Positions 1 through 20,848 of a stretch of 26,543 bases of DNA are shown one piece after another (the first letter of the stretch is position 1; each line of letters begins with the position of its first letter). Location of the stretch: the IMG/VR virus record IMGVR_UViG_3300010430_003072, positions 1 to 26,543 of that record; one strand, given 5' to 3'. The position numbers and the translations under genes were made by a program. Origin of the DNA: a virus. Under the pieces are notes generated by a model, which was not told where the DNA came from, made no database searches, and saw only the letters and a list, made by a program, of their open reading frames with translations.

Positions 1-395
1 ATCACCTCTCCGGTGACACTCAGGACCGATTGCCATCTCATGTGCATGAGGGAATGAAGGGGACGATGCGCCACGAGTTCGGCCACTATGTCATGTCGCA
101 GCTTTCCAGCGATCAGAGACACGAATGGACGAGCAAGGTGTACGGTGCGAGGATGATTGAGATGGGTGCCGACGGTGGGGCTAACTACGGCATGCTCGGC
201 AGCAACTCAGACAAGCAGTATGACTGGTACCGGAAGCCAGGTCTGGGTGGCACGTTCCCGTCCACCTACGCCATGGTCAACGACCGTGAAGGGTTCGCCG
301 AGACATTCTCCATCATCACTCACCCCGATTACGATCGCAGCAAATACGATCCAGAGATTTACCCGATGCTCGACTTCGTGGAGGGTCTCGCCTGA
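1..395 (+). CDS. zinc metallopeptidase-like protein, C-terminal part (5' end outside window)
   Basis: The reading frame is open from the first complete codon (base 3), so the gene begins upstream; the TTG at base 30 is unlikely to be the true start. The visible part contains HEFGH (bases 72-86), the zincin motif with two zinc-binding His and a catalytic Glu. About 70 residues later comes NDREGFAETF, whose Glu residues fit the third zinc ligand. This arrangement is typical of zincin domains attached to phage head-associated polyvalent proteins, which are thought to enter the host with the DNA. The missing N-terminus could be a portal or MuF head protein, another effector module or only this domain. 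It ends one base into the start of the next large modular gene (TGATG), suggesting translational coupling. The substrate is unknown. Confidence 0.72.
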   Translation, partial: HLSGDTQDRLPSHVHEGMKGTMRHEFGHYVMSQLSSDQRHEWTSKVYGARMIEMGADGGANYGMLGSNSDKQYDWYRKPGLGGTFPSTYAMVNDREGFAETFSIITHPDYDRSKYDPEIYPMLDFVEGLA

Positions 396-7627: not shown

Positions 7628-10600
7628 GCAAGCGCATCAAGCCGCTCTACGGCCAAGAGAGAGAACCTGGTCCCGATTGGGAGCAGGAGCTTGCCGCCGC
7701 TACCTCCGTCGAAGAGGTCAACGAGATCACTGCACGCTATGTGTTCGACAAGTCTGCTCCCGTCTCCGAAGCGTTCGGCGACAACCGGAAACGCAAACTG
7801 AAGCAGATCAAAGGGCTGAAGCGTTCCCGCAGCTACGACGACCCTCGCCCCGCCATTGCCTCGAAGAAGAAGCGTCGGCGAAAGAAGCGGAGATCCGAGC
7901 GCCCGACCCTGAGCGCAGCGAAGAAGCCGACAGCGAAACATCCCGGGAACCACAGGGAAGAGTCTCACGGCAACTGGTCACAGGGCCGCAAACCTGAGAT
8001 CCGTAAGCCTCGCAAACCGGTCAACCCGAACAAGCCGTCCCCGTCCTCCCAGAAACAGAAAGCTCCGGTCGACCCGAAGCTGAAGACCACTGACGACGCT
8101 GCCGACTCCGACAAGGAACTCGGCACCAAGGAGAACCCGATCGTCACCGACGATGTGAACGAAGCGATCGCTCTCCTCGCCGAAGGCAAATATGTCGAAC
8201 TGAACCAGCCGGACGAAGTCTCGACCCTCCTCGACAAGATGTCGGAGTATGCCCAGGAGGCCCAGGAGGCTGGGAACAAGGCCGAGGACATCGACCTGTG
8301 TCGCCTCACTGTGGCAGGCACCAACATCTTCTGCGTCCAGAACGTCGGTGTCGAACGTATCAACATGCCGCAGTTCTCAGGCAAAGCCGCCGAGGGTTCC
8401 CGGGCCTACGAGATCGGTGGGCGAACAGGTGAAGCGAACGTGTCCGGCCACTTCGTCAACCACCTCAAATCTCAGGGCATCGCCGTCACCGAGGAGATGG
8501 CCCCCGCCTCGCACCTGAGAGCCTCACAGAACCAACTGATCGGGACCAAGGTCGGTGGGATTATGGACGCCATGAACGAAGGTAAGCTCGAACAGACCCC
8601 GATCTTCGTGTCCCGAGACAACTACGTCATCGACGGCCATCACCGTTGGGCGGCGAACGTCGGCATCGATTTCGCAGACAACAAGGCCGGGGACTACGAC
8701 ATCCCGGTGATCAGGTTGGATGTGGGGATTCTCGAAGCGTTGGACATGGCGAACGAGTTTGCGACCGGGGTCGGGATCTTGCCGAAGGGTGCCCCCGGGG
8801 TGGAGGAGCGCAGCATCGTCAAGCACGCTGACCACAAACAGGAAGATCATGGGAACTGGGCCAGCGGAGCGAAGGTACCTGACGAGCCAGCGAAGGTGAC
8901 GTTTCACCGGTACGGTAGAGCGACGAAAATTGCGTCAGGGGAGACCCGTGGGGGGCGCTATGGCGACCTGTCCGGTCAGGACTATTGGGCTGAGGTGAAC
9001 GGTCGTCGGTGGGAGATTGAATCTTCCTCAAGCCGGGGCGGTGGCGGTAGGCGTCTCTGGATGGCGAACACCGGAAGTATTGAAGGCAACGACTATGACG
9101 TTGTCATCGGGTGGGGTAGGAAAGACCTGGTCGAGAAGATCCGGGAATATGGCAGCGGCAAGGGCATCGTCAAGCATTACGGTCCCGGCCCCCATTCGTC
9201 CGGCACCCCCCAGTCAACCCACGGCGCTTGGTCGCGCGGCCTCTCTGCCGATCAGCGTGTGAAGGATCTTGAGGGCGATATCGCCGAGGGCCGCCCGGTC
9301 GGGTTCACGATCCATGTTCCGTCTGGTGCTGAGCCGACGAAGGGCTGGTCGGTGGCTCTTGAGGGTCACGAGTCTCGGGTGAAGCTCTCGAAGCTGTCCA
9401 CCTCGTCGGTGCAGGCGTATCGCCAGCAGCATGCCGAGGCGCTCCAGGACCCGTCGACTTCGTGGGGTGCGTGGCTGGAGGGCGGCGACGTGTTCTTCGA
9501 CGTGTCGGTTGTGGAGGACGACCCGGGGGAGGCGATCAAGCTGGCCCGCTCGTCTGACCAGATCGGGATCTTCAACCTGGAGACGGGCGAGACGGTGCGG
9601 CTGGATGACGATGCCAGGATCGCCGAGCTTCTCGGTCCGGCCAGTATCGAGAAGGGTCTGGTCATAGGCTTTACGCCACGTCGCTCAGCGACTAGGGTGA
9701 AGAGCATGAGCGCCAACCCCATCGTCAAGCACGCAGCCACGGGAGCCGGAGGGAACCATCCGTCCGGTAGCCCACAGTCTGTGCATGGCAGTGGCGGTGG
9801 TGGTAAGTACGTCACCAAGGAGATTCGCATCCAACGCTCCGGTGGCGAACGTCCCTGCGTCCATCCGAACTGCGCCACCCTCCACTGGAACCTGAAAGAC
9901 GCCGTCTGGGACCTCGGTGACCACATCGTCCCCGACAACACCTGGGTCGTCCTGGACGCCGACACCGACGAGAACCTCTGGCATCATGGGGCCGGAGTGG
10001 AGGGCATGGACACGAAGCGCGAAGCGATCGAATGGGCGAAGCAGAACTACCCCGACATCCCCATCGACTCGAAGCCCACACCGAAGCCGCCACCGCCCCC
10101 CCCTGAGCCGGTTGACTTCGACAGCATCGGTAACTTCCAGCAGGCGAAGGCAATGGGCATGCTCGCCTCGAAATGGGTATCACTCCCCGAGGAAGAGCAG
10201 CGTCGTCTCTGGGCTGAAGCGAAGATCATGAAGCACTACGGTCCCGGACCCCACCCCGGCACCATGTCCCCACAGGACGTTCACGGTGCTGGCGGCGGCG
10301 GTTCCAGCAGCGACCCGATCGGCGACTCCCCGCAAGAGAACGCATCGGACGCTGTGCTCGGCGAGACCGAGAAACGTCAGAACCTCCCCAGGTGGTTTGA
10401 GGGCGGTACCCCGCCTCCCGGCAGCTATTGGATTGCCGATACCCGCATGGGCGATGTGGAGAAGAAGTTCGGCCAGCTAAACCGGCGTGGCGAGAAGTAT
10501 GGTCTTGAGCCGTTCAAGATGGAGGTCGTCGACCGTCACGAGCAGGTGGTCGCTGATCAGGACATGGGGTGGTCGGGTGAAGGCCAATCTGTCGTAGCCT

Positions 10601-12036
10601 GGTCGCTCGTCCAGGTCAACGGTACGCCACCCTCGTTCGAGGGCTGGGAGTTTGCCGGACGGATCGAGCACCTCCCCACCATGGAATCCGAAGGCGAAGA
10701 CCTGTTCAACATCCTCCACATGCGCCCCGACTTCGAGGGCGATTTCCCCGAGCAGTATCGAAATTCCGGCCCTGACTGCGAGGTCTGCAACCGCAAGGTC
10801 TATCGCAAGGACACGTTCCTTGTCCACAACACCAAGACCGACGAGTGGAAGCAGGTCGGGCGCGACGACCTGACCCTGTTCACCGGAGCGACCAACCCGG
10901 CCGCCTCGAAGTTCTACCTCCAAGTCTTCGACGACCTGGAGGAAAGTGAGTTCTTCGAGCCGTCAGGTTGGGGGAACGCCTACGTCTCCGACACCGGCAC
11001 CTACCTTGCCCGGGTTGCAGCCGAGGTGCGGGAGCATGGCTATGTCTCAGCATCTTCGCTGAAGGACGACTTTGGCAATCGGGTTGATTCGAGTAGCACC
11101 ACCGCTGAGATTGTCTTGGACCGGGAGTACTACAAGACCCAGTATGCCGACAAGACCCCCGAATCCACCCCCGCAGATATACAGCTTGCTGAGGACGCCC
11201 AGGCTTACTATTCGGCGTACGAGACACCGCCCGAGGTTGCTGCCTTCCGGGACTACAAGGCGAAGTATCAGTTTGACGATGACGGGTATTACACGGGTGA
11301 CTACCCGGACATCTACCCGCCAGATCCGATGAGCGATGTCGGGACCTACGGCTGGAAGGAAGGCAACTCCGCTGAGTTGTATTCGCAGCGGGTCGACTTC
11401 TGGAAGAAGAACGTAATGGGGACCCCGCTCGACCCGACCGGTGGGAAGGCCACCATCGAGTTTGAGATATTCGACGGGATCGGTGTAGAGGTGATCCACC
11501 ATTCTCAGTCGCTCACCGAAAAGGGCATGCGCGACCTGTACAAGGCTGAGACGAACGACTCGTTCATGATGAACATGAAGGCCGCCGCCATCACCCCCTT
11601 CACCACACGCTCCAATGCCGGTCTCCAGGCATACGTCGTTCCCGGCTACCAGCGGCACCTCGCCCAGGTGGAACTCGATGCGATCCGGGCAGCGAAGCCG
11701 CAATCCGAGTGGGTGGGTACGGTCGGCGAGCGCCAGCGGTTTGACCTGACGATCTATGAGGTCAAGAACGGTTGGAAGGACTCTGGCTACGGTGAGAAAG
11801 AATGGGTCCTGACCAAGACCACCGACCCCGACGGCAACCTCGTCCACTCATGGTATTCAGGGAAGTTCACGAAAGTCCCAAGCCCCGACCCCGAAGGCTA
11901 CGAGGACAACTGGAAGGCGGGCGATGTCGTCCACGCCGACGCCAAGGTCAAGTCGCACGACGTTGACCAGTACTCCGACGATCAGAAGGTAACCTGGATC
12001 GAGCGGCTCACCAAGGTGGAGGTTGACCAGTCATGA
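7624..12036 (+). CDS. giant modular polyvalent protein with ParB-like and phage/plasmid zinc-binding domains
   Basis: 1470 residues from GTG 7624, chosen because it makes a GTGA overlap and sits about 7 bases after GGAAGGA; ATG 7600 and 7609 are in-frame alternatives. Five linkers (105-121, 400-415, 517-534, 702-722, 870-888) split it. A very basic patch (about 81-92) precedes the first linker. Module 2 is ParB/sulfiredoxin-like: RINMPQ, then a helical S.NQL segment and VIDGHHRWAAN (Asp 337, His 339-340). Modules 3 and 4 are small and unrecognised. Module 5 has C745....C750 and a poly-Pro stretch. The last module (about 890-1470) resembles a large domain widespread in phages and plasmids: DFEGDFPEQYR, C1052..C1055, RKDTFLV, KQVGR. 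The Cys usual after KQVGR is Asp here (R1080-D-D-L). It is probably delivered with DNA; the role is unknown. Confidence 0.7.
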   Translation: MSKRIKPLYGQEREPGPDWEQELAAATSVEEVNEITARYVFDKSAPVSEAFGDNRKRKLKQIKGLKRSRSYDDPRPAIASKKKRRRKKRRSERPTLSAAKKPTAKHPGNHREESHGNWSQGRKPEIRKPRKPVNPNKPSPSSQKQKAPVDPKLKTTDDAADSDKELGTKENPIVTDDVNEAIALLAEGKYVELNQPDEVSTLLDKMSEYAQEAQEAGNKAEDIDLCRLTVAGTNIFCVQNVGVERINMPQFSGKAAEGSRAYEIGGRTGEANVSGHFVNHLKSQGIAVTEEMAPASHLRASQNQLIGTKVGGIMDAMNEGKLEQTPIFVSRDNYVIDGHHRWAANVGIDFADNKAGDYDIPVIRLDVGILEALDMANEFATGVGILPKGAPGVEERSIVKHADHKQEDHGNWASGAKVPDEPAKVTFHRYGRATKIASGETRGGRYGDLSGQDYWAEVNGRRWEIESSSSRGGGGRRLWMANTGSIEGNDYDVVIGWGRKDLVEKIREYGSGKGIVKHYGPGPHSSGTPQSTHGAWSRGLSADQRVKDLEGDIAEGRPVGFTIHVPSGAEPTKGWSVALEGHESRVKLSKLSTSSVQAYRQQHAEALQDPSTSWGAWLEGGDVFFDVSVVEDDPGEAIKLARSSDQIGIFNLETGETVRLDDDARIAELLGPASIEKGLVIGFTPRRSATRVKSMSANPIVKHAATGAGGNHPSGSPQSVHGSGGGGKYVTKEIRIQRSGGERPCVHPNCATLHWNLKDAVWDLGDHIVPDNTWVVLDADTDENLWHHGAGVEGMDTKREAIEWAKQNYPDIPIDSKPTPKPPPPPPEPVDFDSIGNFQQAKAMGMLASKWVSLPEEEQRRLWAEAKIMKHYGPGPHPGTMSPQDVHGAGGGGSSSDPIGDSPQENASDAVLGETEKRQNLPRWFEGGTPPPGSYWIADTRMGDVEKKFGQLNRRGEKYGLEPFKMEVVDRHEQVVADQDMGWSGEGQSVVAWSLVQVNGTPPSFEGWEFAGRIEHLPTMESEGEDLFNILHMRPDFEGDFPEQYRNSGPDCEVCNRKVYRKDTFLVHNTKTDEWKQVGRDDLTLFTGATNPAASKFYLQVFDDLEESEFFEPSGWGNAYVSDTGTYLARVAAEVREHGYVSASSLKDDFGNRVDSSSTTAEIVLDREYYKTQYADKTPESTPADIQLAEDAQAYYSAYETPPEVAAFRDYKAKYQFDDDGYYTGDYPDIYPPDPMSDVGTYGWKEGNSAELYSQRVDFWKKNVMGTPLDPTGGKATIEFEIFDGIGVEVIHHSQSLTEKGMRDLYKAETNDSFMMNMKAAAITPFTTRSNAGLQAYVVPGYQRHLAQVELDAIRAAKPQSEWVGTVGERQRFDLTIYEVKNGWKDSGYGEKEWVLTKTTDPDGNLVHSWYSGKFTKVPSPDPEGYEDNWKAGDVVHADAKVKSHDVDQYSDDQKVTWIERLTKVEVDQS
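7936..7986 (+). repeat. inter-domain His-rich linker copy 7 (HGNW type)
   Basis: Encodes KHPGNHREESHGNWSQG. It follows the basic patch and precedes the ParB-like module. Glu replaces the usual Gln before the HG. Confidence 0.8.
8821..8868 (+). repeat. inter-domain His-rich linker copy 8 (HGNWA type)
   Basis: Encodes KHADHKQEDHGNWASG, nearly the same as copy 3, which lies in a different protein 6 kb upstream. It ends the ParB-like module. Confidence 0.87.
9172..9225 (+). repeat. inter-domain His-rich linker copy 9 (GPGPH type)
   Basis: Encodes KHYGPGPHSSGTPQSTHG, between two small unrecognised modules. Confidence 0.87.
9727..9789 (+). repeat. inter-domain His-rich linker copy 10 (long variant)
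   Basis: Encodes KHAATGAGGNHPSGSP followed by QSVHG, then a Gly-rich stretch. It mixes features of both linker subtypes. Confidence 0.82.
10231..10287 (+). repeat. inter-domain His-rich linker copy 11 (GPGPH type)
   Basis: Encodes KHYGPGPHPGTMSPQDVHG, then Gly/Ser-rich spacer. It precedes the large C-terminal zinc-binding-like module and is the last copy in the window. Confidence 0.87.
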
Positions 12037-12602
12037 AACCGACCTACGTCCAACTCGACACGGACATGACTGACGATGAGGTTGTCGCCGCCATCCGGGA
12101 GGCATCCTCTCAGCCCAAGGTCGCCAAGTCCCTCCTCCGTGACCTTGCCAAGATCGACCCATCGGAGCGTGTCCTGTACCCTCGCCGCTCGATCGCCAAG
12201 ATCGCTGTGTTCCAACCCAACCTCGATATCACCGAGACCGACGCCGACAAGAACCTCGTGTTCGGGTGGGCGTCGATCGCCGTGCAGAAGGACGGCCACC
12301 AACTCTCCGACCTCCAGGGCCACTCGATCGACATCGACGATCTGGAAGACGCCGCCTACAACTTCACCATCGATTACCGCAAGACCGGTGAGATGCATTC
12401 CGGTGAATCTCTCGGCGAGATGGTGGAGTCGTTTGTGGTCACACCGGACAAGCTCGACCAGATGGGTCTCACCTCCGATGCTTTGCCGCTAGGATGGTGG
12501 GTAGGGTTCAAGGTACCTCCCGAAGTGTTCGCTAAGGTGAAGACTGGGAAGTACAAGATGTTCTCAATTCAAGGCAAAGCTACCCTCGAAGCAATCAACT
12601 AG
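12033..12602 (+). CDS. XkdF-like prohead (capsid maturation) serine protease
   Basis: 189 residues, starting in an ATGA overlap. After a short leader the protein shows the XkdF pattern: NLVFGWASIAV, a GHSIDIDDLEDAAY segment, a central His in GEMHSGE (His 122), VESFVVTPDK, LPLGWWVGFKV, and a terminal MFSIQGKA with Ser 178. His 122 and Ser 178 are the expected catalytic residues of this herpes-protease-like fold. The role is to trim scaffold and capsid proteins inside the procapsid before DNA packaging. The length is normal for a free-standing protease. It is placed directly after the linker-containing cargo proteins and before the scaffold-like gene. That makes the scaffold its likely substrate; cutting at the His-rich linkers is possible but unproven. 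Confidence 0.88.
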   Translation: MKPTYVQLDTDMTDDEVVAAIREASSQPKVAKSLLRDLAKIDPSERVLYPRRSIAKIAVFQPNLDITETDADKNLVFGWASIAVQKDGHQLSDLQGHSIDIDDLEDAAYNFTIDYRKTGEMHSGESLGEMVESFVVTPDKLDQMGLTSDALPLGWWVGFKVPPEVFAKVKTGKYKMFSIQGKATLEAIN

Positions 12603-12649
12603 ATATACTCCATACCTGGAGCGCCATCGAGCGCCGACCTCATAGGAGG
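12603..12649 (+). promoter_or_regulatory. leader element A: TATACT box, tandem GAGCGCC repeat, strong ribosome binding site
   Basis: In the 55-base gap before the basic-protein gene there is a TATACT (12604-12609) resembling a -10 box. It is followed by GAGCGCC at 12619-12625 and again at 12629-12635 (period 10), then AGGAGG at 12644-12649. No good -35 box is visible. The same repeat stands before three other starts. Confidence 0.55.
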
Positions 12650-12657
12650 CGACAACG

Positions 12658-12993
12658 ATGGCTGATACCTCAAAGAAGGCTCCCGGCAAGGCTCCGAAGA
12701 AGGCTGCCACAGTATCCGATTATCCGGCAGCGAAGCCCAGGTCGAAGCCCAAGCCCAAGTCGAAACCCAAGCCGACCCTCCCAGAGCTTCGTCGTGCCTG
12801 GGGTGACACTCAAGCCAAGACGCTCGACCGTGAGCGCAACCTATCTCGCGCCAACGCAACGCAATCCTCAGCCTCCGACCGCTCCATCCAGGTCGAGAAG
12901 GCAAAGATCTCCCTCCAGAAGGCTCGGGACGTGGAGGAGAAAGCTCGCTCCCGATTCATCAACCAACAGCGAGAGGAGGCAGCGAGGCGATGA
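12658..12993 (+). CDS. small basic Lys/Pro/Ala-rich protein, possibly scaffold-associated
   Basis: 111 residues with a consensus AGGAGG 8 bases before the ATG. The first 45 residues are rich in Lys, Pro and Ala, with repeats of the KPKSKPK kind, and are probably disordered and nucleic-acid-binding or internal to the head. Residues 55-111 are charged with heptad-like spacing and likely form a helix or coiled coil. No known family is recognised. It sits between the prohead protease and the scaffold-like gene and overlaps the latter by ATGA, so it is probably a minor head or assembly protein. It is the first gene behind leader element A, which suggests high late expression. Confidence 0.7.
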   Translation: MADTSKKAPGKAPKKAATVSDYPAAKPRSKPKPKSKPKPTLPELRRAWGDTQAKTLDRERNLSRANATQSSASDRSIQVEKAKISLQKARDVEEKARSRFINQQREEAARR

Positions 12994-14039
12994 AGAAATT
13001 CAAGCTCCGTCAGCTTCTGATCGACCGAGCGGACCTGGTCGACAAGGGTGCGAACCAGGAAGCGTTCATCGAGCTATTCAAGCGAGACGACACCAAGCCC
13101 AGCGTCCCCGAAGCCCTCGACCGGGCGAGGAAGCGCAAGACAGGAGGTCCCACCGTGGACAAGAAGAAGAAGCGCCCTGCGTTCCTCGACGAGGAGCTTG
13201 AGGGTGAGCCGAAGGAGAAGTCGAAGGATGAAGAGATGACCGACGAGGAGAAGAAGAAGCTCCTCTCGAAGGGCATGTCTGATACCCTCGAAGCCATCAC
13301 GAAGGGTCTCGTCGAAACCGACGTATTCGTCGATGATGCGACTGGTGGCGATCTTCGTGATATGCTACCGCCTGAGACACTCTCCAGTATCGAGGAAGTG
13401 TTGAAGAGCGCCTGGAGCGCCGAGCCAGTAGGAGAAGCTGGTATGAGCGAACCAAGCGCACTCAGCGCAACCGACCTGGAAGAACTGGTGGAGTATGTCG
13501 AGAAGCTCGAAGCTGAGGTCGTAGACCTTACGAAGAGACTCGAAGACGATCCTCTTCCCGAAGAGACCGAGATCACCAAGGCTCTCACTGAGTTGCCTGA
13601 AGATGTAGCCAAGGCCATCGAGGCCGAGCGTACCGAACTCGCTGAGAAGCGGGAAGAGGTAGCCAAGGCCGACATCGAGAAGGCCGACCGGGAGTACGTC
13701 GCCAAGATGGAGGCCCTGCCCGGCATCGTCGATTCCCCCAAGGACTTCGGCCCGGTGCTTCGTCAGGTCGCTGCCTTCGACGCCGATCTCGCCAAGTCCA
13801 TCGAAGCTGTCCTTGAGGCGGCGAACGCTCGCATCGAGAAGGGTGACCTGTTCACCGAGGTGGGCAAAGTCACAACGACAACCGGTGGAGATGCGATGGA
13901 AAAGGCGACAAGCATCGCCAAGTCGATGGTGGAAGCCACCCCAGAACTCAGCCTTGAAGAGGCGCGGTCCCGGGTGTGGGAGACCAACCCGGAGTTGTAC
14001 GCCGAATACAACGCCGAACGAGAAGCCGCCAAGAAGTAG
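12990..14039 (+). CDS. scaffold-like head assembly protein
   Basis: 349 residues, starting in an ATGA overlap with GAGGAGG upstream. The N-terminus has IDRADLVDKGANQEAF followed by LFKRD, close to the E-V-D-x-V-D-x-(G/P)AN...A...L.KR segment at the start of proteins that follow XkdF proteases in many phages. The middle is highly acidic and basic with long helices (LVEYVEKLEAEVVDLTKR and the region after it), as expected for a scaffold. The C-terminus (SIAKSMVEATPELSLEEARSRVW) resembles the P-x-L-(T/S)-x-x-x-A-x-x-x-V-(F/W) tail of the same group. Its place between protease and capsid gene supports the call. Two internal in-frame starts with excellent ribosome binding sites (13155, 13443) suggest nested shorter products. 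Confidence 0.75.
   Translation: MKKFKLRQLLIDRADLVDKGANQEAFIELFKRDDTKPSVPEALDRARKRKTGGPTVDKKKKRPAFLDEELEGEPKEKSKDEEMTDEEKKKLLSKGMSDTLEAITKGLVETDVFVDDATGGDLRDMLPPETLSSIEEVLKSAWSAEPVGEAGMSEPSALSATDLEELVEYVEKLEAEVVDLTKRLEDDPLPEETEITKALTELPEDVAKAIEAERTELAEKREEVAKADIEKADREYVAKMEALPGIVDSPKDFGPVLRQVAAFDADLAKSIEAVLEAANARIEKGDLFTEVGKVTTTTGGDAMEKATSIAKSMVEATPELSLEEARSRVWETNPELYAEYNAEREAAKK
13142..13157 (+). promoter_or_regulatory. internal ribosome binding site and in-frame GTG start inside the scaffold gene
   Basis: AGGAGGT (13142-13148) is a perfect Shine-Dalgarno sequence, followed 6-7 bases later by GTG 13155 in the scaffold frame. Initiation here would give a 294-residue product lacking the GAN...LFKR segment. 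Confidence 0.5.
13406..13445 (+). promoter_or_regulatory. leader element B: tandem GAGCGCC repeat, ribosome binding site and internal ATG inside the scaffold gene
   Basis: GAGCGCC occurs at 13406-13412 and 13415-13421 (period 9), then AGGAG at 13430-13434, then ATG 13443 in the scaffold frame. The product would be the 198-residue helical C-terminal part of the scaffold. The order of parts matches the leaders of the capsid and tail tube genes, although here the element lies in coding sequence. Confidence 0.55.
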
Positions 14040-14066
14040 CGGACGAGACGACAGGAGACAAGAACC

Positions 14067-14441
14067 ATGGCATTCGAGATTCCAGGTCAAATGGTCCCGC
14101 TCGATAGCGGATCAACGGCCGTCAAGCAATTTCTCGCTGTTGGCCTCGACGCATCCGGTGTGATCTTGGCCGCCTCTACGGCGGATACCAAGTTCATCGG
14201 GATCGCCCAGAACGACAACGACAGCACGACAGCAGGTGAGTCGATCAACGTGATGATCAACGGCGTGAGCAAGCTCATCGCCACTGGCACCACGATGTCC
14301 GCAGGCGACGCATTTGCGGTTGCCGCCACCGGGAAGGCCATCCCCCTCGCTGGTAACGCCACCCAGAAGGGCGTCGTGATCAGCGGCACCTCGGGCAGCG
14401 CCGACAGGGTCATGACCGTCCTTATCAACCCGCTCGCCTAG
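14067..14441 (+). CDS. capsid decoration/stabilisation protein (DUF2190-like)
   Basis: 124 residues with CAGGAGA 10 bases before the ATG. The sequence is small, Ala/Gly/Thr-rich and beta-strand-like: GVILAASTADTKFIGIAQ, a GESINVMINGVSKLIA stretch, TMSAGDAFAVAATGKAIP, and a closing DRVMTVLINPLA. This pattern of a GI/GVA segment and a G-x-V-x-V-x-x-x-G-x-x segment followed by a G-D-x-x-x-V...G-x-A turn is that of DUF2190-type proteins, which bind the outside of phage heads as cement proteins. It lies immediately before the major capsid gene, the usual place for such proteins, between scaffold and capsid. A short head fibre is a less likely alternative. Confidence 0.75.
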   Translation: MAFEIPGQMVPLDSGSTAVKQFLAVGLDASGVILAASTADTKFIGIAQNDNDSTTAGESINVMINGVSKLIATGTTMSAGDAFAVAATGKAIPLAGNATQKGVVISGTSGSADRVMTVLINPLA

Positions 14442-14448
14442 AGACAGA

Positions 14449-14497
14449 CATAAGGGAAGCCAGAGCGCCCTTGAGCGTCCGCGCTGAACACAGGAGG
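14449..14497 (+). promoter_or_regulatory. leader element C: tandem GAGCGCC repeat before the major capsid gene
   Basis: In the 60-base gap before the capsid gene, GAGCGCC at 14463-14469 and GAGCGTC at 14473-14479 (period 10, one mismatch) are followed by AGGAGG at 14492-14497 and ATG 14502. A poor -10-like CATAAG lies at 14449-14454. The second unit overlaps a short AGCG/CGCT inverted repeat. Confidence 0.55.
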
Positions 14498-14501
14498 CAA
14501 C

Positions 14502-15470
14502 ATGCCCATTCAGCCAGGACCAGGTGACGTACATCTTGATCAGGCCCTCACGGACCTGTCGGTACGTTTCACTCAAGATCATCAGGAGTTCGTGGCGGCG
14601 AAGGTTTTCCCCGTCGTGAATGTCTCCTTCCGAAGCGACAAGTACTTTGTTTATCCACGCGAGTGGTGGTACAAGACCGATGCGACCAAGAGAGCGCCAG
14701 CGACCGAATCGGCCGGTGGAGGTTACGAGCTTGACAGCGACGACTACAAGGCCGAGGTCTATGCGTTCCACCGTGACCTCGACGATCAGACCCGGGCGAA
14801 CGCCCAGAGCCAGATCACCCTTGAAGCGGACGCTACCGACTTCGTGACCACCAACCTCCTTCAGTTGCGCGAGCAACAGTGGGTGGAGAAGTACTTCGCT
14901 GCATCCGTGTGGACCGGAGAGACGACACTCTCAGGGACGGATCAATGGGACGACTATGCAAACAGCGATCCCATCGACGACATGCGGACCGTGGTCATCG
15001 ACATGGCACGGGGAACCGGCAAGCGCCCGAACAAGCTCGTGCTCGGACCTGAGGTCTGGAACAAGCTTCAGGACCACCCGGCGTTCCTCGAACGTGTCAA
15101 GTACACGGAGCGGGCCGTCATCGGAACCGAGATCCTCGCATCGATGCTCAACATCGGTGAGGTGCTCGTGCCCGAGTCGATCAAGCAGGAGAAGCAGGAA
15201 GGCGAGACCGTGGCGTTCACGGACTACGACTTCCACCTGGGCAAGAACGCCCTGTTCCTCTACGTTGCGCCCTCCCCGGGCCTCAACACCGCATCGGCTG
15301 GGTACACGTTCAACTGGTCGGGCCTCAACGGCTCTGCCGGTCAGGGCATCAGGATGAAGAAGTTCCGCATGGAAGCGATCGCATCTGATCGTGTCGAGGG
15401 CGAAATGGCCTACGACCAGAAGGTCGTGTCGGCTGACCTCGGCAGCATCCTCCTCTCGTGTGTTAGCTAG
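14502..15470 (+). CDS. major capsid protein (HK97 fold)
   Basis: 322 residues with AGGAGG four bases before the ATG. The N-terminal part contains QEFVAAKVFPVVNVSFRSDKYFVY followed by a WW, the opening typical of one large class of HK97-fold capsid proteins. Next come an acidic YKAEVYAFHRDLDDQTRANA region, a long helix around QWVEKYF, and the conserved KRPNKLVLGPEVWNKL ... HPAFLERVKY segment near residues 170-200. An ILASMLNIGEVLVPE stretch and a beta-rich C-terminus follow. The position after protease, scaffold and decoration genes and before connector genes fits exactly. The protein is short for a capsid protein with a fused scaffold, which agrees with a separate scaffold gene. Leader element C and the best-spaced ribosome site suggest strong expression. 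Confidence 0.92.
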   Translation: MPIQPGPGDVHLDQALTDLSVRFTQDHQEFVAAKVFPVVNVSFRSDKYFVYPREWWYKTDATKRAPATESAGGGYELDSDDYKAEVYAFHRDLDDQTRANAQSQITLEADATDFVTTNLLQLREQQWVEKYFAASVWTGETTLSGTDQWDDYANSDPIDDMRTVVIDMARGTGKRPNKLVLGPEVWNKLQDHPAFLERVKYTERAVIGTEILASMLNIGEVLVPESIKQEKQEGETVAFTDYDFHLGKNALFLYVAPSPGLNTASAGYTFNWSGLNGSAGQGIRMKKFRMEAIASDRVEGEMAYDQKVVSADLGSILLSCVS

Positions 15471-15479
15471 GAGGAACCC

Positions 15480-15848
15480 ATGACTTCAGTCGTAACAAGC
15501 CAGAGGGTCACCGATCGGTTTGGCATCAAGCATGTCACCCCGGCGGCGACCACCTCGGCCAACCTCCCGAACTATGGGGTGTCGCTGATTGCGTCCACAG
15601 GGGCGTACGTCATCGACAACCCGGTGGTCGGGACGCAGGCCATCATCGCTGTCACGGCTCTCTCCACGGAGACCTCGACGGTGGCGACCGCCTCAACGAC
15701 GGTCACGTTCGCTTCCTCTTCGTCCTCTTCGACCGGTGGTGACAACACACTGACGTTCGATGCGGCCGGTGAAGCAGTGACGCTCGTTGGTGCGTCGACA
15801 CAGTCGTGGGTCGTGGTCTCCAACAGCGGGTCCGTCGCACAGTCGTAA
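15480..15848 (+). CDS. small Ser/Thr-rich beta-type head protein, function unknown
   Basis: 122 residues, with TAGGAGGAA directly before the ATG, nine bases after the capsid stop. Composition is strongly Ser, Thr, Val and Ala with alternating hydrophobic residues, suggesting a beta sandwich or a short stalk. A SSSSSSTGGDN loop lies near residue 88. No family is recognised. Its place right after the major capsid gene suggests a second decoration or head fibre protein, but this is by position only. There is no signal peptide or membrane segment. Confidence 0.72.
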   Translation: MTSVVTSQRVTDRFGIKHVTPAATTSANLPNYGVSLIASTGAYVIDNPVVGTQAIIAVTALSTETSTVATASTTVTFASSSSSSTGGDNTLTFDAAGEAVTLVGASTQSWVVVSNSGSVAQS

Positions 15849-15874
15849 CAATCAACAGAGAAGGGAGCCACCAG

Positions 15875-16162
15875 ATGGCCTACCAAGCAGCCAAGCGAAT
15901 GACCCTTGCAGGAGTCAAGGTCGGCCCAGGCGACATACTCGACGAGGAACTCCTCGGAGATATGCCGACCGGTCGACTCGATTCCCTGCGTAGGGTCGGG
16001 CACATCGTTGAAGTTGTTGACACCCCTAAGTTGAAGGCACGGAAGCGCAAGCAACCGGAACCTGAGACATTGGAGACCACACCGGAAGAGGAGGCCGTAG
16101 AGGAAGAGTCTTCGACAGATGACTCGACCACTGTATCCTCCGACCCTGAAGCGTCTACCTAG
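15875..16162 (+). CDS. small head protein with acidic disordered tail, function unknown
   Basis: 95 residues from ATG 15875, preceded by GAAGGGAG; an upstream in-frame start at 15806 lacks a site and overlaps the previous gene. The first 45 residues form a compact unit (LAGVKVGPGDILDEELLGDM ... RLDSLRRVGHIVEV). The pattern of G-x-x-(V/I)-x-x-G-D-(I/V) followed by a Leu-rich R-L-x-x-L helix is common in small phage proteins encoded near the capsid gene. A basic KARKRK patch and about 30 Glu/Ser/Thr residues follow, probably unstructured. The role is unknown. Confidence 0.7.
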   Translation: MAYQAAKRMTLAGVKVGPGDILDEELLGDMPTGRLDSLRRVGHIVEVVDTPKLKARKRKQPEPETLETTPEEEAVEEESSTDDSTTVSSDPEAST

Positions 16163-16178
16163 TCAAGGGGAATGTTCA

Positions 16179-16952
16179 ATGGCAACGACGACCAAGAGTC
16201 GCAAGGCCAAGGCTGGTACCCCCCGAACTGTATACATCGTCGGGTTCGCACCCTCATGGGAAGACACTCCCTGGGGCGAACCCGACGCTGCATATTGGGG
16301 AATGAACGATCTGCATGCCGTCAAGGATGCAGCCGAGAAGCCGTGGACGAAATGGTTCCAACTCCACGACATCGACAAGCATCATGAGCACAACGCAGAT
16401 ACCCATGTCGGGTGGCTGAACCAGCAGGACTTTCCTGTCGTGATGTTCGAGGGCCATGTCGACAAGCGCATCAACAACCCGGAGCCGTACCCCAAAGCCG
16501 AGATCCTCGAAGAGTTCGGGACCTACTTCACAAACTCGGTGAGTTGGATGATCGCCCTTGCTATCGCCGAGGGCTACGAGAAGATTGGGATCTACGGCAT
16601 TGACATGGCCCAAGACAGTGAGTACGGCCATCAGCGTCCGTCGTGCGAATACTTCGTCGGGTGGGCGCAGGGCAGAAACATCGAGATCGATGTTGCCGAA
16701 TCTTCCGACCTACTCAAGACACCGTTCTTGTATGCGGTCGAGGACGGCGGCCCTCTTCGACGCAAGCTTGAGTCGAGGATGAAAGAACTGACCGAGCGTA
16801 AGACACAGATCGATGGGCAGATGAATCAACTTCAACTCCAGTCGGCGAACCTGGCCGGGGCGCTCGAAGACACCCGCTACTACTTGCGGGCGTGGTCTCA
16901 AGGCGAAATGACTGACGGCCCGGAGCCGCAACCACAGGAGGCGGCAACATGA
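16179..16952 (+). CDS. Rossmann-like phage protein of unknown function with C-terminal coiled coil
   Basis: 257 residues from ATG 16179, about seven bases after AAGGGGAA; the upstream in-frame start at 16119 lies inside the previous gene. It begins with a basic tail, then TVYIVGFAPSWEDTPW, a beta strand with a GxAPS turn resembling a nucleotide-binding loop. Further landmarks are YWGMNDLH, KWFQLHDIDKH, YFTNSVSWMIALAIAEGY, KIGIYGIDMAQDSEY and QRPSCEYFVGWAQGRNIEI. This set recurs in phage proteins of unknown function. The alternating strands and helices and the IYGIDM motif suggest an alpha/beta enzyme, possibly a nucleotide- or sugar-handling one. Residues 205-245 are Glu/Lys/Gln-rich and likely a coiled coil. 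An enzyme-like gene inside the head-tail block is notable; it may be a virion component. Confidence 0.65.
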   Translation: MATTTKSRKAKAGTPRTVYIVGFAPSWEDTPWGEPDAAYWGMNDLHAVKDAAEKPWTKWFQLHDIDKHHEHNADTHVGWLNQQDFPVVMFEGHVDKRINNPEPYPKAEILEEFGTYFTNSVSWMIALAIAEGYEKIGIYGIDMAQDSEYGHQRPSCEYFVGWAQGRNIEIDVAESSDLLKTPFLYAVEDGGPLRRKLESRMKELTERKTQIDGQMNQLQLQSANLAGALEDTRYYLRAWSQGEMTDGPEPQPQEAAT

Positions 16953-17284
16953 ATGTCCATTCACCAGTACAAGCGAGAGGTCTCCTGAATTCCGTAGTGG
17001 CAACGACCGAGGTCGGCGCTGGAACGGCGTTCGGGGTTCAGCCAACCGAGAAGGTCGCCATGCAGGTGGTTCACGGGTCGACGGCGGCAACGCCAACCCA
17101 GGTGAAGGTGGAAGGTTCTCTCGACGGAACCAACTGGTTCAACATCGGGGCGACCCAGAGCTACAACACCGCAGACACAAGCATCTATGTTTCGACCGGC
17201 TCGTTCGTTGCCACGGTGGTGCGGGCGAACGTCGTCGTACATGCAGCGACCGGTACGGTGCAGGCGGATCTGGCGGTGGTCTAG
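16949..17284 (+). CDS. small beta-sandwich head protein, possible Ig-like or carbohydrate-binding decoration
   Basis: 111 residues, starting in an ATGA overlap with CAGGAGG upstream. The core VKVEGSLDGTNWFNIGATQ resembles the strand-loop-strand G-S-x-D-G-x-x-W-x-x-(I/L)-G of phage Ig-like or discoidin-like beta sandwiches. A VRANVVVHAATGTVQADLAVV strand pair closes the fold. Such small proteins often sit on the head surface. The location between capsid and connector genes agrees, but there is no direct evidence for ligand binding. Confidence 0.7.
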   Translation: MNVHSPVQARGLLNSVVATTEVGAGTAFGVQPTEKVAMQVVHGSTAATPTQVKVEGSLDGTNWFNIGATQSYNTADTSIYVSTGSFVATVVRANVVVHAATGTVQADLAVV

Positions 17285-17736
17285 TGAGCCACGAAGCCAA
17301 CGCCACATATAGCGGCGACCCCTCCTCATCCGACCTGGATGCGGTGCGGTTTATCCTGGCTGACACGGGGGACACGTTCATCCTCACCGACCCCGAGATC
17401 GAATATCTGCTCGCCACCAACTCGTCCCCCGCCGCAGCAGCAGCGGAAGGGGCGCGCACGATGGCAGCCGTCTACGGGTCGAAGGCCGACAAGTCGGTTG
17501 GGGATCTCTCGATCCGATACTCGGACCGTAGGGAACATTTCCAGACCCTCGCCGACACCCTCGACGGCAAGACCGCCAGCCTGGGTTCGGCGCTGACCGG
17601 GATCACTGGAGGCAGGGGTGCAGAGCGCGACCCGATCTTCTGGCTCGGCCAGATGCGTCAGCCCGGCACACCGGTCACCGACTACTCGACTTCGATGGCC
17701 TCTGTCGAATCGTTCTCAGCGGGCACATCGACATGA
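17284..17736 (+). CDS. head-tail connector (adaptor) protein
   Basis: 150 residues starting at GTG 17284, which overlaps the previous stop by one base (TAGTG). The N-terminal region DLDAVRFILADTGDTFILTDPEIEYLL followed by an Ala-rich helix (SPAAAAAEGARTMAAVYG) is the hallmark of the gp6/gp15-type helical adaptors that bind the portal ring. The KSVGDLSIRYSDR stretch that follows is also typical. The C-terminus (FWLGQMRQPGTP) is extended. It opens the canonical series connector, closure protein, neck protein, terminator and tail tube, with ATGA coupling to the next gene. Confidence 0.85.
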   Translation: MSHEANATYSGDPSSSDLDAVRFILADTGDTFILTDPEIEYLLATNSSPAAAAAEGARTMAAVYGSKADKSVGDLSIRYSDRREHFQTLADTLDGKTASLGSALTGITGGRGAERDPIFWLGQMRQPGTPVTDYSTSMASVESFSAGTST

Positions 17737-18083
17737 GCTTCGACCCCGAGTTCCTGGAGCTAATGGCAGACACGATCCGTGTCTCGACCATGACCGGCTT
17801 CGACGGCTACGGGGATGTGGCGTATTCAACAACGCCGTCGACCTACCAGGCTCGCATCACGAACATCCCGAAGATGGTGCGGAACTTCATGGGCGAAGAG
17901 GTCGTGGCGTCGAACGTCGTCTGGGTGGCGAGCACCGGGATCATCCCGGCCACCGCCCAGGTCTCGTGGACGATGTCGGACGGTTCGACCCAGATGCCGC
18001 TCCTGATCTCGATCGAGCGCCCGGCCGACGAGGACGGCACCCACCACAACAAGCTCTACTTCGGACCGGCTGGGGGTGGGTGA
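17733..18083 (+). CDS. head closure (head-tail stopper) protein
   Basis: 116 residues in ATGA overlap with the connector gene. The sequence is beta-rich: DTIRVSTMTGFDGYGDVAY, YQARITNIPKMVRNFMGEEVVASNVVWVAS, and a final KLYFGPAGGG. The phrase DG(Y)G..xYst.st..xRi.....V....G.eV.S...V is common in stopper proteins of the SPP1 gp16/HK97 gp7 group, which seal the head after packaging. The length is normal. Position between connector and neck protein supports the call. Confidence 0.8.
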   Translation: MSFDPEFLELMADTIRVSTMTGFDGYGDVAYSTTPSTYQARITNIPKMVRNFMGEEVVASNVVWVASTGIIPATAQVSWTMSDGSTQMPLLISIERPADEDGTHHNKLYFGPAGGG

Positions 18084-18487
18084 TGGCTACAGCAAGCTTC
18101 AGTGAGAAAGGGATGCAGGCTGCCAGGGATGCCCTGGCGGGTCTCGGCCCGAAGGTCACCACGATCGGGGCCGGTGCGCTGTACAAGGAAGGCATCGACA
18201 TCATGAACGCCTCACTGGACATTGTCCCGGTGCTCACCGGCAGGTTGAAGGGGACCGGCACAGTGTTCCCCCCCGTCGAAGTAGGTGGCGACGCCGTCGT
18301 GCTCCTCTCCTACGGTGACGCCGAGATCGACTATGCCGTCGAGCAGCACGAAACCCCACCGGAGATCTACAGTCACAGGGCGGGCCAGTCCTGGAAGTAC
18401 CTTGAGCGTCCGGCGTTCGAGGCGACCAGGGGCATGGGGCATCGCATCGCCCTCTACATCAACAACCGCTTGAAGAGGGAGGCGTAA
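18083..18487 (+). CDS. neck/tail completion protein (HK97 gp10-like)
   Basis: 134 residues from ATG 18083, one base into the previous stop (TGATG); a longer frame reaching 17618 is only the open upstream extension. An N-terminal helix is followed by ALYKEGIDIMNASLDIVPVLTGRLKGTG, VLLSYGDAEIDYAVEQHE and KYLERPAFEA. The P-V-x-T-G-x-L-x-x-(S/T) motif, the Y-A-x-x-x-H/QHE and the K(Y/F)LE..A segment identify the gp10-type tail completion/neck family. The order before the tail terminator is the usual one. Confidence 0.85.
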   Translation: MATASFSEKGMQAARDALAGLGPKVTTIGAGALYKEGIDIMNASLDIVPVLTGRLKGTGTVFPPVEVGGDAVVLLSYGDAEIDYAVEQHETPPEIYSHRAGQSWKYLERPAFEATRGMGHRIALYINNRLKREA

Positions 18488-18882
18488 TGCTCCTCGATGA
18501 GATCGCCACCTACGTCGCCACAAACTCAACCCTTGTGGTCGGGACGGACCTGTTCAAGAACCAGTTTCCGGCGACGGCGAAAGATACGGCGGTCGGGATC
18601 TACGAGTCGGGAGGTGTCGGGCCGAGCGTTACGTTCGGTGGCGTCTCCCACGAGTCCCCGTCCATCCAGGTTGTGGTTCGCTCCACGTCGTATGGCGTGG
18701 CGCGCAACCTGGCCCAAACGATCTTCAACGATCTCCTCGACATCGAGAACTCAACCCTCTCGGGGACGAGGCATCTCATGGCCCGGGCGCAACAGTCGCC
18801 GTTCTCGATCGGAACAGACGCCAAGGATCGTCCCCGTGTGTCCTGCAACTACTTCATCGAGAAGGAAGTGTCGTCGACATGA
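18487..18882 (+). CDS. tail terminator protein
   Basis: 131 residues, with GAGGGAGG before an ATG that overlaps the previous stop by one base. The sequence runs EIATYVATNST..VGTDLFKNQFP, AVGIYESGG, SPSIQVVVRSTSYGVARNLAQTIFNDL, HLMARAQQSPFSIGTDAKDRPRVSCNYFIE. The I-Q-V-x-V-R-x-x-x-Y-x-x-A strand-helix unit and the closing S-x-N-(Y/F) strand characterise the terminators of siphovirus tails (lambda gpU-like), which cap the tail tube at its final length. Gene order supports this. Confidence 0.83.
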   Translation: MLLDEIATYVATNSTLVVGTDLFKNQFPATAKDTAVGIYESGGVGPSVTFGGVSHESPSIQVVVRSTSYGVARNLAQTIFNDLLDIENSTLSGTRHLMARAQQSPFSIGTDAKDRPRVSCNYFIEKEVSST

Positions 18883-19115
18883 CACCGTCATTCGTCTTCG
18901 ACCGAATCGCACAGCTTGACCAGGTTGAGGCAGATCTGCGTTCGTGGGCGAAGGTGTACGGCGGATATCGTGAGAGTCTTATCGAAGAGGGGTTCGACCC
19001 GGACGAAGCATTCTCCATGGTCATGAGTTGGCAGCAGGGTATGTTCACGATACAGGCCCACATAGAGACGGCTGCTATCCTCAACTCAATAGAGGAAGAG
19101 GGGAGGGAAGGGTGA
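18879..19115 (+). CDS. small helical protein, function unknown
   Basis: 78 residues in ATGA overlap with the terminator gene. The sequence is acidic and almost wholly helical, with LDQVEADLRSWAKVYGGYRES, LIEEGFDPDEAFSMVMSWQQGMF and an acidic tail. The G-F-(D)-x-x-x-A-x-x-(M/L)-x-x-x-(W/Y) pattern recurs in small phage proteins of unknown role found beside tail genes. No catalytic or metal-binding motif is visible. Coupling by GTGA to the next, Com-like gene suggests that they are produced together. Confidence 0.68.
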   Translation: MTPSFVFDRIAQLDQVEADLRSWAKVYGGYRESLIEEGFDPDEAFSMVMSWQQGMFTIQAHIETAAILNSIEEEGREG

Positions 19116-19306
19116 CGCCACTAACCCACGAGTTCGTGAATGAACTCAAAAGCGATATGCAGGTTCTACGTCAGACCTTCTCCGATGTACGGTGTGATGG
19201 GTGCGCTAGGCTTCTCCTTCGGTGGAGGCCGAGCGGTATAGCGACCATCAGCGTGAAGTGCCCAAGGTGCGGGAAGCTCGATACTGTCCAACTCTCAACC
19301 GGCTAG
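19112..19306 (+). CDS. Com-like zinc-finger protein (possible RNA-binding translational regulator)
   Basis: 64 residues from GTG 19112 (GTGA overlap; GGGAGGGAAG upstream). After a 25-residue helix comes VRCDGCARLLLRW, a 9-residue gap, then IATISVKCPRCGKLDTVQL. The four Cys (C-x2-C ... C-x2-C) with the I/V-(R/K)-C-P-R-C-x-K-x-(D/N) ending match the Com family of Mu-like phages. Mu Com is a small zinc protein that binds the mom mRNA leader and exposes its ribosome site, so translation can start. No mom gene is visible in this window. Its gene ends 63 bases before the first tail tube gene, whose leader holds repeat element D; an RNA-binding role there is speculation. A generic zinc ribbon is the alternative. 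Confidence 0.7.
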   Translation: MTPLTHEFVNELKSDMQVLRQTFSDVRCDGCARLLLRWRPSGIATISVKCPRCGKLDTVQLSTG

Positions 19307-19307
19307 C

Positions 19308-19360
19308 TACAATTCACTTCGGAGAGCGCCTGCGAGCGCCTTAACGGTCACCCCAGGAGG
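19308..19360 (+). promoter_or_regulatory. leader element D: TACAAT box, tandem GAGCGCC repeat and ribosome binding site before the tail tube gene
   Basis: The 62-base gap before the tail tube gene contains TACAAT (19308-19313, -10-like), GAGCGCC at 19324-19330 and again at 19334-19340 (period 10), and AGGAGG at 19355-19360. It has the same order and nearly the same spacing as element A. No clear -35 box is visible. Confidence 0.58.
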
Positions 19361-19368
19361 TAACCATA

Positions 19369-19785
19369 ATGGCACTTGCAGGAAAAGGCGGGAAGTTCCA
19401 GTTTGACGTAACTGGCACCCCCACAGAGGTGGCCGACCTCCGGGAATGGTCACTCAACATTGATCGGGATCTCTTCGAGATCTCCACGTTCGGTTCAAGC
19501 GGCTGGCGAGACTTCCAGCAAAATCTCAATGGCGCATCGGCGTCCATCTCGGGCTATTGGAACGTCGAGAATTCATCTTCGATGAAGACGATCCAGAGCA
19601 ACATTCTCGACCAGTCTGCTGCGGCGACCGCAGAGTTCTGGGTAGAGAACTCATCCGGTTGGGGCTACACGGCCGAGGTGTTCGTCACATCGCTCAGCCC
19701 GAGCGCAGCGGTGGATGGCATCGTCACGTTCGCTGCCGACATGACTATCACCGGAGCGGTGACGTTCAGCACGGCCCTCACTTAG
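19369..19785 (+). CDS. major tail tube protein (copy 1)
   Basis: 138 residues with AGGAGGT eight bases before the ATG. The sequence is a compact beta-rich tube subunit: MALAGKGGKFQFDV, then VADLREWSLNIDRDLFEIST, a WRDFQQNLNGASASISGYW strand pair, and C-terminal strands (AEVFVTSLSPSAAVDGIVTF, MTITGAVTFST). The A-V-D-G-(I/V)-V-T-F...ITG-x-(V/L) ending is typical of siphovirus tail tube proteins. The leader with repeat element D and the strong ribosome site fit a major structural protein. The next gene is a larger paralogue. Confidence 0.87.
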   Translation: MALAGKGGKFQFDVTGTPTEVADLREWSLNIDRDLFEISTFGSSGWRDFQQNLNGASASISGYWNVENSSSMKTIQSNILDQSAAATAEFWVENSSGWGYTAEVFVTSLSPSAAVDGIVTFAADMTITGAVTFSTALT

Positions 19786-19794
19786 GAGACAACC

Positions 19795-20439
19795 ATGGCA
19801 TTGGCAGGCAAAGACGCCAACGTCTACATCACCGCAGCAACGCCAACGACGGCGGCGGGAGAGACGTTCAATGCTGTCGCCGGGTCCTCAGTCTCCCACC
19901 AGATCACCGCCTCATCGAAGCGGCACTGGGAGCGTGAACCGGACACGGTAGGACGCCCCAGGATGCTCGTAGGCGGCACCACGGTGGGAGTACCCGAATA
20001 CGACATCAACTACGTCCAGGGCATCATCACGTTCGCCTCCACGGTCTCTGGTGCCGTCACCGGGGACGTGGAGTGGCTGACCTCAGCGTCGATCGCAGAG
20101 GGCCGTGAATGGCAACTCAGTGTCGACCGAGACCTGTTCGAGGTCTCCACCTTCGACAGCGGGGGGTGGCGGGAGTTCCAGGAGAACATCAACGGCGCAA
20201 CGGCGTCGGTGAGTCGCTACTGGTCAACAGGCGGTACGGGCGGGGGTGAGTTCTTCGACATGATGAACGTCGAACAGGACGTGATCCTACAGCTACGCCC
20301 CGACGAATCCGCAGGCGACGCCTACGAGGGCTACGCCAAGATAACGGCAGACAGCGTTGCAGCAGCGGTGGACGGCATCGTCGGTGAGTCGATTGACTTC
20401 ACCATTGACGGTGCCCTCTACTACACGACATCGGCATAG
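19795..20439 (+). CDS. tail tube-like protein (copy 2, with N-terminal insertion)
   Basis: 214 residues, nine bases after copy 1, with TTAGGAGA before the ATG. Both proteins start MALAGK. Residues about 102-143 (EWQLSVDRDLFEVSTF ... WREFQENINGATASVSRYW) match copy 1 at most positions, and the C-termini share the AAVDGIVGES/AAVDGIVTF strand and a final beta hairpin. Copy 2 carries about 75 extra residues after MALAGK, with HWEREPDTVGRPRMLVGG and YDINYVQGIITFAS, a Y-x-(I/V)-x-Y-x-x-G-x-I-x-F segment often seen in tube or baseplate proteins. It could be a second, minor tube subunit, a tube tip or a decorated tube variant. It arose by tandem duplication. Confidence 0.78.
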   Translation: MALAGKDANVYITAATPTTAAGETFNAVAGSSVSHQITASSKRHWEREPDTVGRPRMLVGGTTVGVPEYDINYVQGIITFASTVSGAVTGDVEWLTSASIAEGREWQLSVDRDLFEVSTFDSGGWREFQENINGATASVSRYWSTGGTGGGEFFDMMNVEQDVILQLRPDESAGDAYEGYAKITADSVAAAVDGIVGESIDFTIDGALYYTTSA

Positions 20440-20464
20440 GCCGATCAACTAGAAGGAGCCACAG

Positions 20465-20848
20465 ATGGCCTCAGAGCTACGAGCGAAAGCCCTCGAAGCA
20501 GACGACATCGACGAAGAGATTGTCCCGGTAGACCAATGGGGTATCAAGCTACTCGTCAAAGGCATGTCCGGCGGTGACCGGGCGAAGTTCCTGAAGCGTT
20601 CATCGCGCGCCGGGGAAGTCGACCTGGAACGGTTCTACCCAGAACTCGTCATCGCTACCTGCTTCGATCCCGACGCACCCGACGAGCGGGTGTTCGACCC
20701 GGCCGACCGGGATGCATTGTCAGCGAAGTCGGGCGCTGCCCTTGAGTTGATAGCAGCCGTGGCGCTTCGCCTCTCCGGGATGGGGCAAGCCGCCATCTCA
20801 GACGAGGTGGCGTCTTTAGACGAAGCCCCGAGCGAAGGTTCTACCTAG
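20465..20848 (+). CDS. tail assembly chaperone, short form (gpG-like)
   Basis: 127 residues with GAAGGAG before the ATG. The sequence includes DQWGIKLLVKGMSGGDRAKFLK, LERFYPELVIATCFDPDAPDERVFDPADRDALSAKSGAALELIAAVALRLSGM. The F-(Y)-P-x-L-(V/I)-x-x-(C/T)-x-x-D-P...VF...D-x-x-x-L-x-x-K/S-x-x-A-x-x-x-L-x-x-x-(A/V)-x-x-L-(S/N)-G-(M/L) pattern is that of the gpG/gp24-type chaperones preceding tape measure genes. The -1 frame is open across its end and continues into a conserved gpT-like tail, so a minor frameshifted gpG-T product is expected. It acts with the tape measure during tail assembly. Confidence 0.85.
   Translation: MASELRAKALEADDIDEEIVPVDQWGIKLLVKGMSGGDRAKFLKRSSRAGEVDLERFYPELVIATCFDPDAPDERVFDPADRDALSAKSGAALELIAAVALRLSGMGQAAISDEVASLDEAPSEGST

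Follow-up and report, generated by a model that had tools for sequence, protein, structure and literature searches.

A Com-family zinc ribbon and conserved leader hairpins suggest translational control of virion genes in an uncultivated phage

Phage Mu controls translation of its DNA-modification gene mom through Com, a four-cysteine zinc ribbon whose RNA target is a hairpin, GAATGCC-TGC-GAGCATC, placed directly before the ribosome site of that single target, which overlaps com. The Mu com hairpin also serves as an RNA tag, the com aptamer, in genome engineering. Com-family or Com-like genes recur in B3-type operons, where the target is a DNA methyltransferase or, in Mcat3, a hypothetical protein. 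In seven annotated phages that we examined, com is overlapped or followed by mom in Mu, by a named methyltransferase gene in B3, Smp131, KS5, phiARM81ld, and ST2-1pr, and by the hypothetical protein gene in Mcat3. A fully paired Com-type hairpin lies at the com-target junction of B3, Smp131, phiARM81ld, ST2-1pr, and Mcat3; KS5 has none by the same rule. Small operator hairpins at the ribosome site of a phage gene are also bound by the coat proteins of RNA phages, but these are repressors, have an unrelated fold, and are themselves the capsid protein.

The sequence preference of Com has been defined by RNA SELEX. The Com protein of an H. sputorum prophage selected NGAGNNCC(N)2-3GAGNNCCNN, a bipartite motif present in 868 of 999 selected sequences and predicted to fold as a hairpin with a stem of 3–4 nt (PMC6483171).

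We analysed a 26.5-kb fragment of an uncultivated phage (IMG/VR record IMGVR_UViG_3300010430_003072, positions 1–26,543; hereafter the window) and observe in it a com-like gene followed by a tail tube gene instead of a DNA-modification gene. The gene starts with GTG, overlapping (GTGA) the stop codon of the upstream ORF 18879–19115. By its sequence, the 64-residue product is a Com-family zinc ribbon: it matches PF10122 (Zn_ribbon_Com) at 32.7 bits, above the curated Pfam cut-off of 22.9, and its best PHROG is 6417, 'translational regulator' (1.6e-9). Alignment places the putative zinc-binding cysteines at C28, C31, C50, and C53, in two CxxC knuckles (VRCDGC and VKCPRC). A first-pass annotation made from the letters alone had already proposed a Com-like protein with this knuckle layout, and both profiles agree; it had com ending two codons before the nearest repeat, when the distance from the com stop to that repeat is 17 nt. 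Mu Com carries a disordered C-terminal tail, which PMC6483171 suggests may be needed for rearrangement. The window protein lacks this tail, having 11 residues after its last cysteine, and possesses an N-terminal extension instead. Single-sequence searches with the window Com among viral contigs returned no relative, a phage collection queried with the Com of contig L332 gave no match, and a search of solved structures found weak matches, mostly to ribosomal zinc ribbons. Relatives of the window were collected through its capsid protein and not through Com.

We propose, at a probability that we put at about 0.74, that this Com-family protein binds RNA hairpins in the leaders of four virion-gene targets and activates their translation; no binding or expression data exist. 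The four hairpins would lie directly upstream of the ribosome sites for a basic protein, a scaffold (at an internal start), the capsid, and the tail tube. In the absence of Com, most leaders would refold such that a hairpin arm or loop covers the Shine-Dalgarno sequence or start codon. Com, synthesized by translational coupling inside the late operon, would bind each hairpin as it emerges and hold its fold, and the ribosome site would stay accessible. Com would then be a translational activator of high-copy virion proteins, as it is for mom in phage Mu. Binding by the window's own protein, co-transcriptional action, and timing are inferred, as is the activating sign, an inference strengthened by analogy with Mu. 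Mu has one target, a DNA-modification gene overlapping com; the window has four virion genes, one of which (target D) starts 62 nt past the com stop, the others lying 4–7 kb upstream of com, unlike in Mu.

Table 1. Positions of the com-like gene, hairpin sites, and proposed targets in the window
Feature	Position	Strand	Basis or remark
TATACT, possible -10 element directly 5' of site A	12604..12609	+	Inference; similar hexamers in relatives
Site A, GAGCGCC-ATC-GAGCGCC	12619..12635	+	Exact SELEX motif; before 111-aa basic protein
Ribosome site AGGAGG of site-A gene	12644..12649	+	Sequence
Proposed target A, Lys/Pro-rich protein, 111 aa	12658..12993	+	Function unknown
Site B, GAGCGCC-TG-GAGCGCC	13406..13421	+	Within gene 12990–14039, 5' of in-frame internal start
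Internally started scaffold-like product, 198 aa	13443..14039	+	In-frame start at 13443
Site C, GAGCGCC-CTT-GAGCGTC	14463..14479	+	One G-U pair; before major capsid gene
Proposed target C, major capsid protein	14502..15470	+	phrog_1005 1.1e-81, PF03864
com-like gene, 64 aa	19112..19306	+	CxxC...CxxC zinc ribbon; PF10122, phrog_6417, alignment with relatives
TACAAT, possible -10 element directly 5' of site D	19308..19313	+	Inference; similar hexamers in relatives
Site D, GAGCGCC-TGC-GAGCGCC	19324..19340	+	Exact SELEX motif; between com and tail tube gene
Ribosome site AGGAGG of tail tube gene	19355..19360	+	Sequence
Proposed target D, tail tube protein	19369..19785	+	PF06199, phrog_10528

The sites share the form GA-NNNN-C-N2-5-GA-NNNN-C, the two halves being the arms of one RNA hairpin. 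Changes within the arms of relatives preserve pairing (ACGC/GCGT, GCAC/GTGC, GCGT/ACGC, and G-U forms), and each repeat pair is therefore read as one small hairpin. The first-pass annotation had seen GAGCGCC repeats in the leaders; the pairs are real, but it overlooked that they are arms of a single structure. We observe that sites A, B, and D fit the SELEX motif, in the form GAGNNCC-N2-3-GAGNNCC, exactly (PMC6483171), and site C resembles the natural Mu site (Mu record). All SELEX-type matches of the window lie on the coding strand, 5' of a ribosome site. Their number exceeds chance and is modest taken alone: two 17-nt matches against a shuffle expectation of 0.27 (at least two in 6 of 100 shuffles) and one 16-nt match against 0.17 (at least one in 16 of 100). 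Strong evidence for real sites comes instead from comparison with the sequences of relatives. The pattern GARYGCCN{2,4}GAGYGYC has 29 matches in ten records of the window's clade and a second phage group, 28 of them preceding a gene start on the coding strand, and the reversed pattern has none. A search of window positions 12000–20500 against Rfam gave no relevant match.

The window's clade comprises eight contigs (the window, L009, L010/L332, L133, L134, L135, L335, and L136), of which L135 and L335 share a metagenome of origin and are possibly one phage. The first two relatives, found by capsid search at 59% and 55% identity, already carried site pairs with altered letters at equivalent places. 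Across the clade, all four stem pairs are kept at every one of the 22 covered places orthologous to sites A–D, with L136 showing a variant hairpin closed by an A-U pair. Orthologues occur in L009, L010, L133, and L134 for site A, in the same four plus L135 and L136 for site C, and in L009, L332, L134, and L335 for site D. The com gene is present in six of the eight contigs, L133 and L135 ending before its place; the fourth cysteine of the L136 protein falls beyond the contig end. The capsid gene is apparently AUU-initiated (ATTCCTCAGCCAACG) in L134 near 5730 and L135 near 130, in both cases immediately 3' of a Com-type hairpin with an SD-like sequence; the start at this place is ATG in relatives.

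In the window, L010, and L133, site B is intragenic and 5' of an in-frame start; the L009 and L134 scaffolds each have an ORF of their own, with site B in front of it. Products of 199–203 aa in L009, L133, and L134 begin at the place equivalent to 13443. We infer from place and size that the 198-aa product is a scaffold. A nested scaffold made from an in-frame internal start, as proposed at site B, is familiar from lambda C/Nu3, where to our knowledge no Com-type hairpin exists. For the 111-aa protein behind site A, neither Pfam nor PHROG gave a confident family.

More remote capsid relatives, 75 in number and totalling 815 kb, hold two SELEX-type matches that pass the rule requiring a Shine-Dalgarno sequence and start, both in L197 and neither an evident leader by eye; under a looser rule, three of 73 such loci have one site each, with stems unlike the clade's. 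Com-like ribbons (E < 1e-3) occur in seven of these distant relatives, with none of the leader sites there, and may have other targets or other roles. The ribbon-bearing records are L148, L149, L183, L146, L154, L203, and L140, with weaker others; several ribbons lie 3–4 kb downstream of the capsid gene. Of three checked, two (L146 and L148) exceed the Pfam Com cut-off, as do the Com proteins of L009, L332, and L335 in the clade.

The association recurs in a second, unrelated phage group. A blind scan revealed sites 5' of capsid genes of PHROG 422 in L034, L039, and L127; the window capsid belongs to another family, PHROG 1005. A scan with the Com of this second group retrieved six loci. A capsid site is present in all four group-2 contigs that reach the capsid gene (L420, L421, L423, and L039) and a tail tube site in three of four; L422 and L424, short contigs with com within 0.6 kb of an end, have neither. 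In three group-2 records a third site precedes a long gene, which matches a tape-measure PHROG (4e-25) in one, the other two giving no match over the piece searched. The Com proteins of L127's record, L416, and L039 exceed the Pfam cut-off. A scan of genome contigs with the group-2 Com alignment gave two loci, both lacking a leader site by the rule used. In L033, a site precedes a capsid gene of a third kind (PHROG 1357), accompanied by a diverged ribbon without a Pfam match.

Loci chosen by the Com protein alone carry the same hairpin. Among the matches listed of 389, 80 such loci were considered, and in 69 of these a fully paired hairpin lies between -60 and +260 relative to the end of the com match. 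Spaced GA-N4-C pairs are fully paired in 90 of 122 cases at the com end in these listed loci, whereas randomly chosen regions from those loci give 26 of 1078, and for 41 distinct arm pairs none of 20,000 arm shuffles equals the observed pairing. Among the sites of structural genes, which comprise only eight distinct stems, the observed pairing is attained in 160 of 20,000 shuffles. Conversely, viral contigs scanned blindly for the motif with AGGAG had Com (E < 1e-4) at seven of 120 loci among the matches listed, one of which (L109) has its site remote from any gene start; a further caveat applies to L068, whose ribbon (below) falls short of the Pfam cut-off. With half-sites reversed, the control scan found Com at none of 120 listed loci (best E 3.7e-4).

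Folding predictions link the hairpin to the ribosome site. In predicted structures, hairpin arms or loops pair with the Shine-Dalgarno sequence or start codon. We defined coupling as the difference in the cost of freeing the Shine-Dalgarno-to-start stretch between the free leader and one with the Com hairpin forced, leaving the L136 capsid site and the group-2 tape-measure sites out of the counts. Mean opening cost across 29 leaders is 10.5 kcal/mol free and 6.5 kcal/mol with the hairpin forced; the gain exceeds 0.5 kcal/mol in 23, one leader loses more than 0.5, and six have no useful coupling (0.5 or less). At 92 other starts on the same contigs the mean opening cost is 6.7, against 10.5 for site leaders, although this comparison set holds a few doubtful starts (among them window 17618, L039 10884, and L136 1096, itself a capsid start). 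When hairpins are exchanged among leaders, mean coupling is 1.83 (sd 0.24), and none of 60 exchanges reaches the observed 4.0. With near-duplicates removed, none of 1000 swaps reaches the observed coupling, whether all 27 leaders are taken or just the 20 from the window clade; the seven group-2 leaders on their own give a weak result, with 35 of 1000 swaps reaching it. Junction leaders of com (34 Com-selected plus Mu) behave similarly, with a coupling of 3.75 against 2.30 when swapped (none of 30 swaps reaching the observed value); the leader of Mu, the single case in which activation is proven, gives only 0.49 in the same calculation. In the window, coupling is 9.7, 3.9, 0.0, and 7.3 kcal/mol at sites A, B, C, and D, and in L009 it is negative at D (-0.93) and B (-0.40). 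A switch of this kind is likely in general, as modelled, and is not shown for the window capsid leader. Forming the hairpin is predicted to cost up to 11 kcal/mol, which Com must pay unless it binds during transcription.

These calculations bear on the sign of regulation. Bound Com could instead block the ribosome beside the Shine-Dalgarno sequence and repress, in the manner of RNA-phage coat proteins, giving feedback or delayed virion-protein synthesis. Of the alternatives, repression survives best and remains unlikely. The hairpin end lies near the Shine-Dalgarno sequence in these leaders, close enough for a steric block, and the six leaders without useful coupling fit repression; against it, the forced hairpin opens the ribosome site in the other 23, each leader's own hairpin outperforms swapped ones, and Com is described as an activator in Mu (PMC6483171). 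As 23 of 29 leaders (the window capsid leader not among them) have, in silico, a competing fold that the hairpin would break, activation is the likeliest sign.

Could the repeats be DNA operators or promoter elements of a transcription factor? Their start-to-start spacing near 10 bp and the TATACT/TACAAT-like hexamers directly upstream of A and D would suit such elements. We consider this very unlikely, since the arms covary in the manner of paired RNA and contain many G-U pairs, site B is intragenic before an internal start, no clear -10 element accompanies B or C in orthologues, 28 of 29 matches lie on the coding strand ahead of a gene start, and the motif itself derives from RNA selection (PMC6483171). 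Hexamers like TATACT, TACACT, or TACAAT lie ~10 nt 5' of the A, D, and E hairpins of the window and relatives, with none clear at B and C, and the hairpin may therefore be the extreme 5' end of some transcripts. Hairpins near such possible 5' ends at A and D might protect or stabilise mRNA independently of Com. This we find scarcely credible, because a merely stabilising hairpin needs no fixed GA and C positions, and the sites occur together with com in two unrelated groups and adjoin it in 69 of the 80 listed com loci.

There is little to recommend the remaining possibility, also raised by the first-pass annotation, that Com serves mom or a DNA methyltransferase gene elsewhere and the structural sites are incidental: the neighbours of com in the seven annotated phages speak for it, but the window and nine related records, all of them fragments, yielded no D12 or N6/N4 methyltransferase, and the structural sites are conserved at all 22 covered places. 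A search for Mom was also empty but lacked a positive control and is uninformative. Recognition of GAGCGCC repeats in mRNA by Com, with control of capsid and tail synthesis, was the annotation's first suggestion, and it gains support, short of binding data, from the SELEX motif, conservation with com, and recurrence in the unrelated group. A mom-type gene with its own Com target, together with repeats not conserved with com, would have refuted it; this is not the case, because the repeats are conserved with com.

With less assurance, though on the favourable side of even odds, we extend activation by Com to at least two unrelated groups of tailed phages. Here Com would act as the master activator of translation for a regulon of virion assembly, in which hairpins compete with leader-specific folds hiding the ribosome site, and would set how large a burst of scaffold, capsid, tail tube, and tape measure is made and in what proportions. 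We found no paper on Com control of virion genes in the open-licence literature, subscription papers being outside our scope, and as far as our searches go a structural-gene Com regulon is undescribed. The family and its RNA site are known and the class and number of targets are new; the novelty thus lies in the targets. Tailed phages make capsid, scaffold, and tail proteins from long shared transcripts and need them in very different quantities, and our analysis suggests a new viral way to set the amounts of particle proteins. If true, a dedicated RNA-binding activator offers a direct, testable answer to protein dosage in some phages, and Com widens from a one-target curiosity to a family of many natural protein-hairpin pairs. 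GAGCGCC leaders would then become a searchable signature of Com regulons.

Several further observations concern the window and the scanned loci. Very large ORFs, of 1320, 665, and 1478 aa, lie at positions 395–12036 of the window; they have recurrent HGNW-type stretches and no Pfam match. A 277-aa protein among the head genes (16119–16952) shows a weak, below-cut-off likeness to a sialyltransferase family. A second tail-tube-like gene (19795–20439) follows the first, without a Com site, and L010 has an additional site 5' of an 823-aa gene of no known family. In L074 and L120, Com-type hairpins precede PHROG 1194 genes (DUF6711 in L074), with no Com found in either record. A 47-aa ribbon at L068:7397–7537, below the Pfam cut-off, has its two Com-like knuckles in reversed order, VEVKCPRC coming before IRCNVCHKLLLK, possibly a circular permutation of Com, and adjoins a Com-type hairpin 5' of a gene of unknown family. 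Many com-methyltransferase junctions among L336–L415 carry two tandem Com-type hairpins, with starts 22 nt apart.
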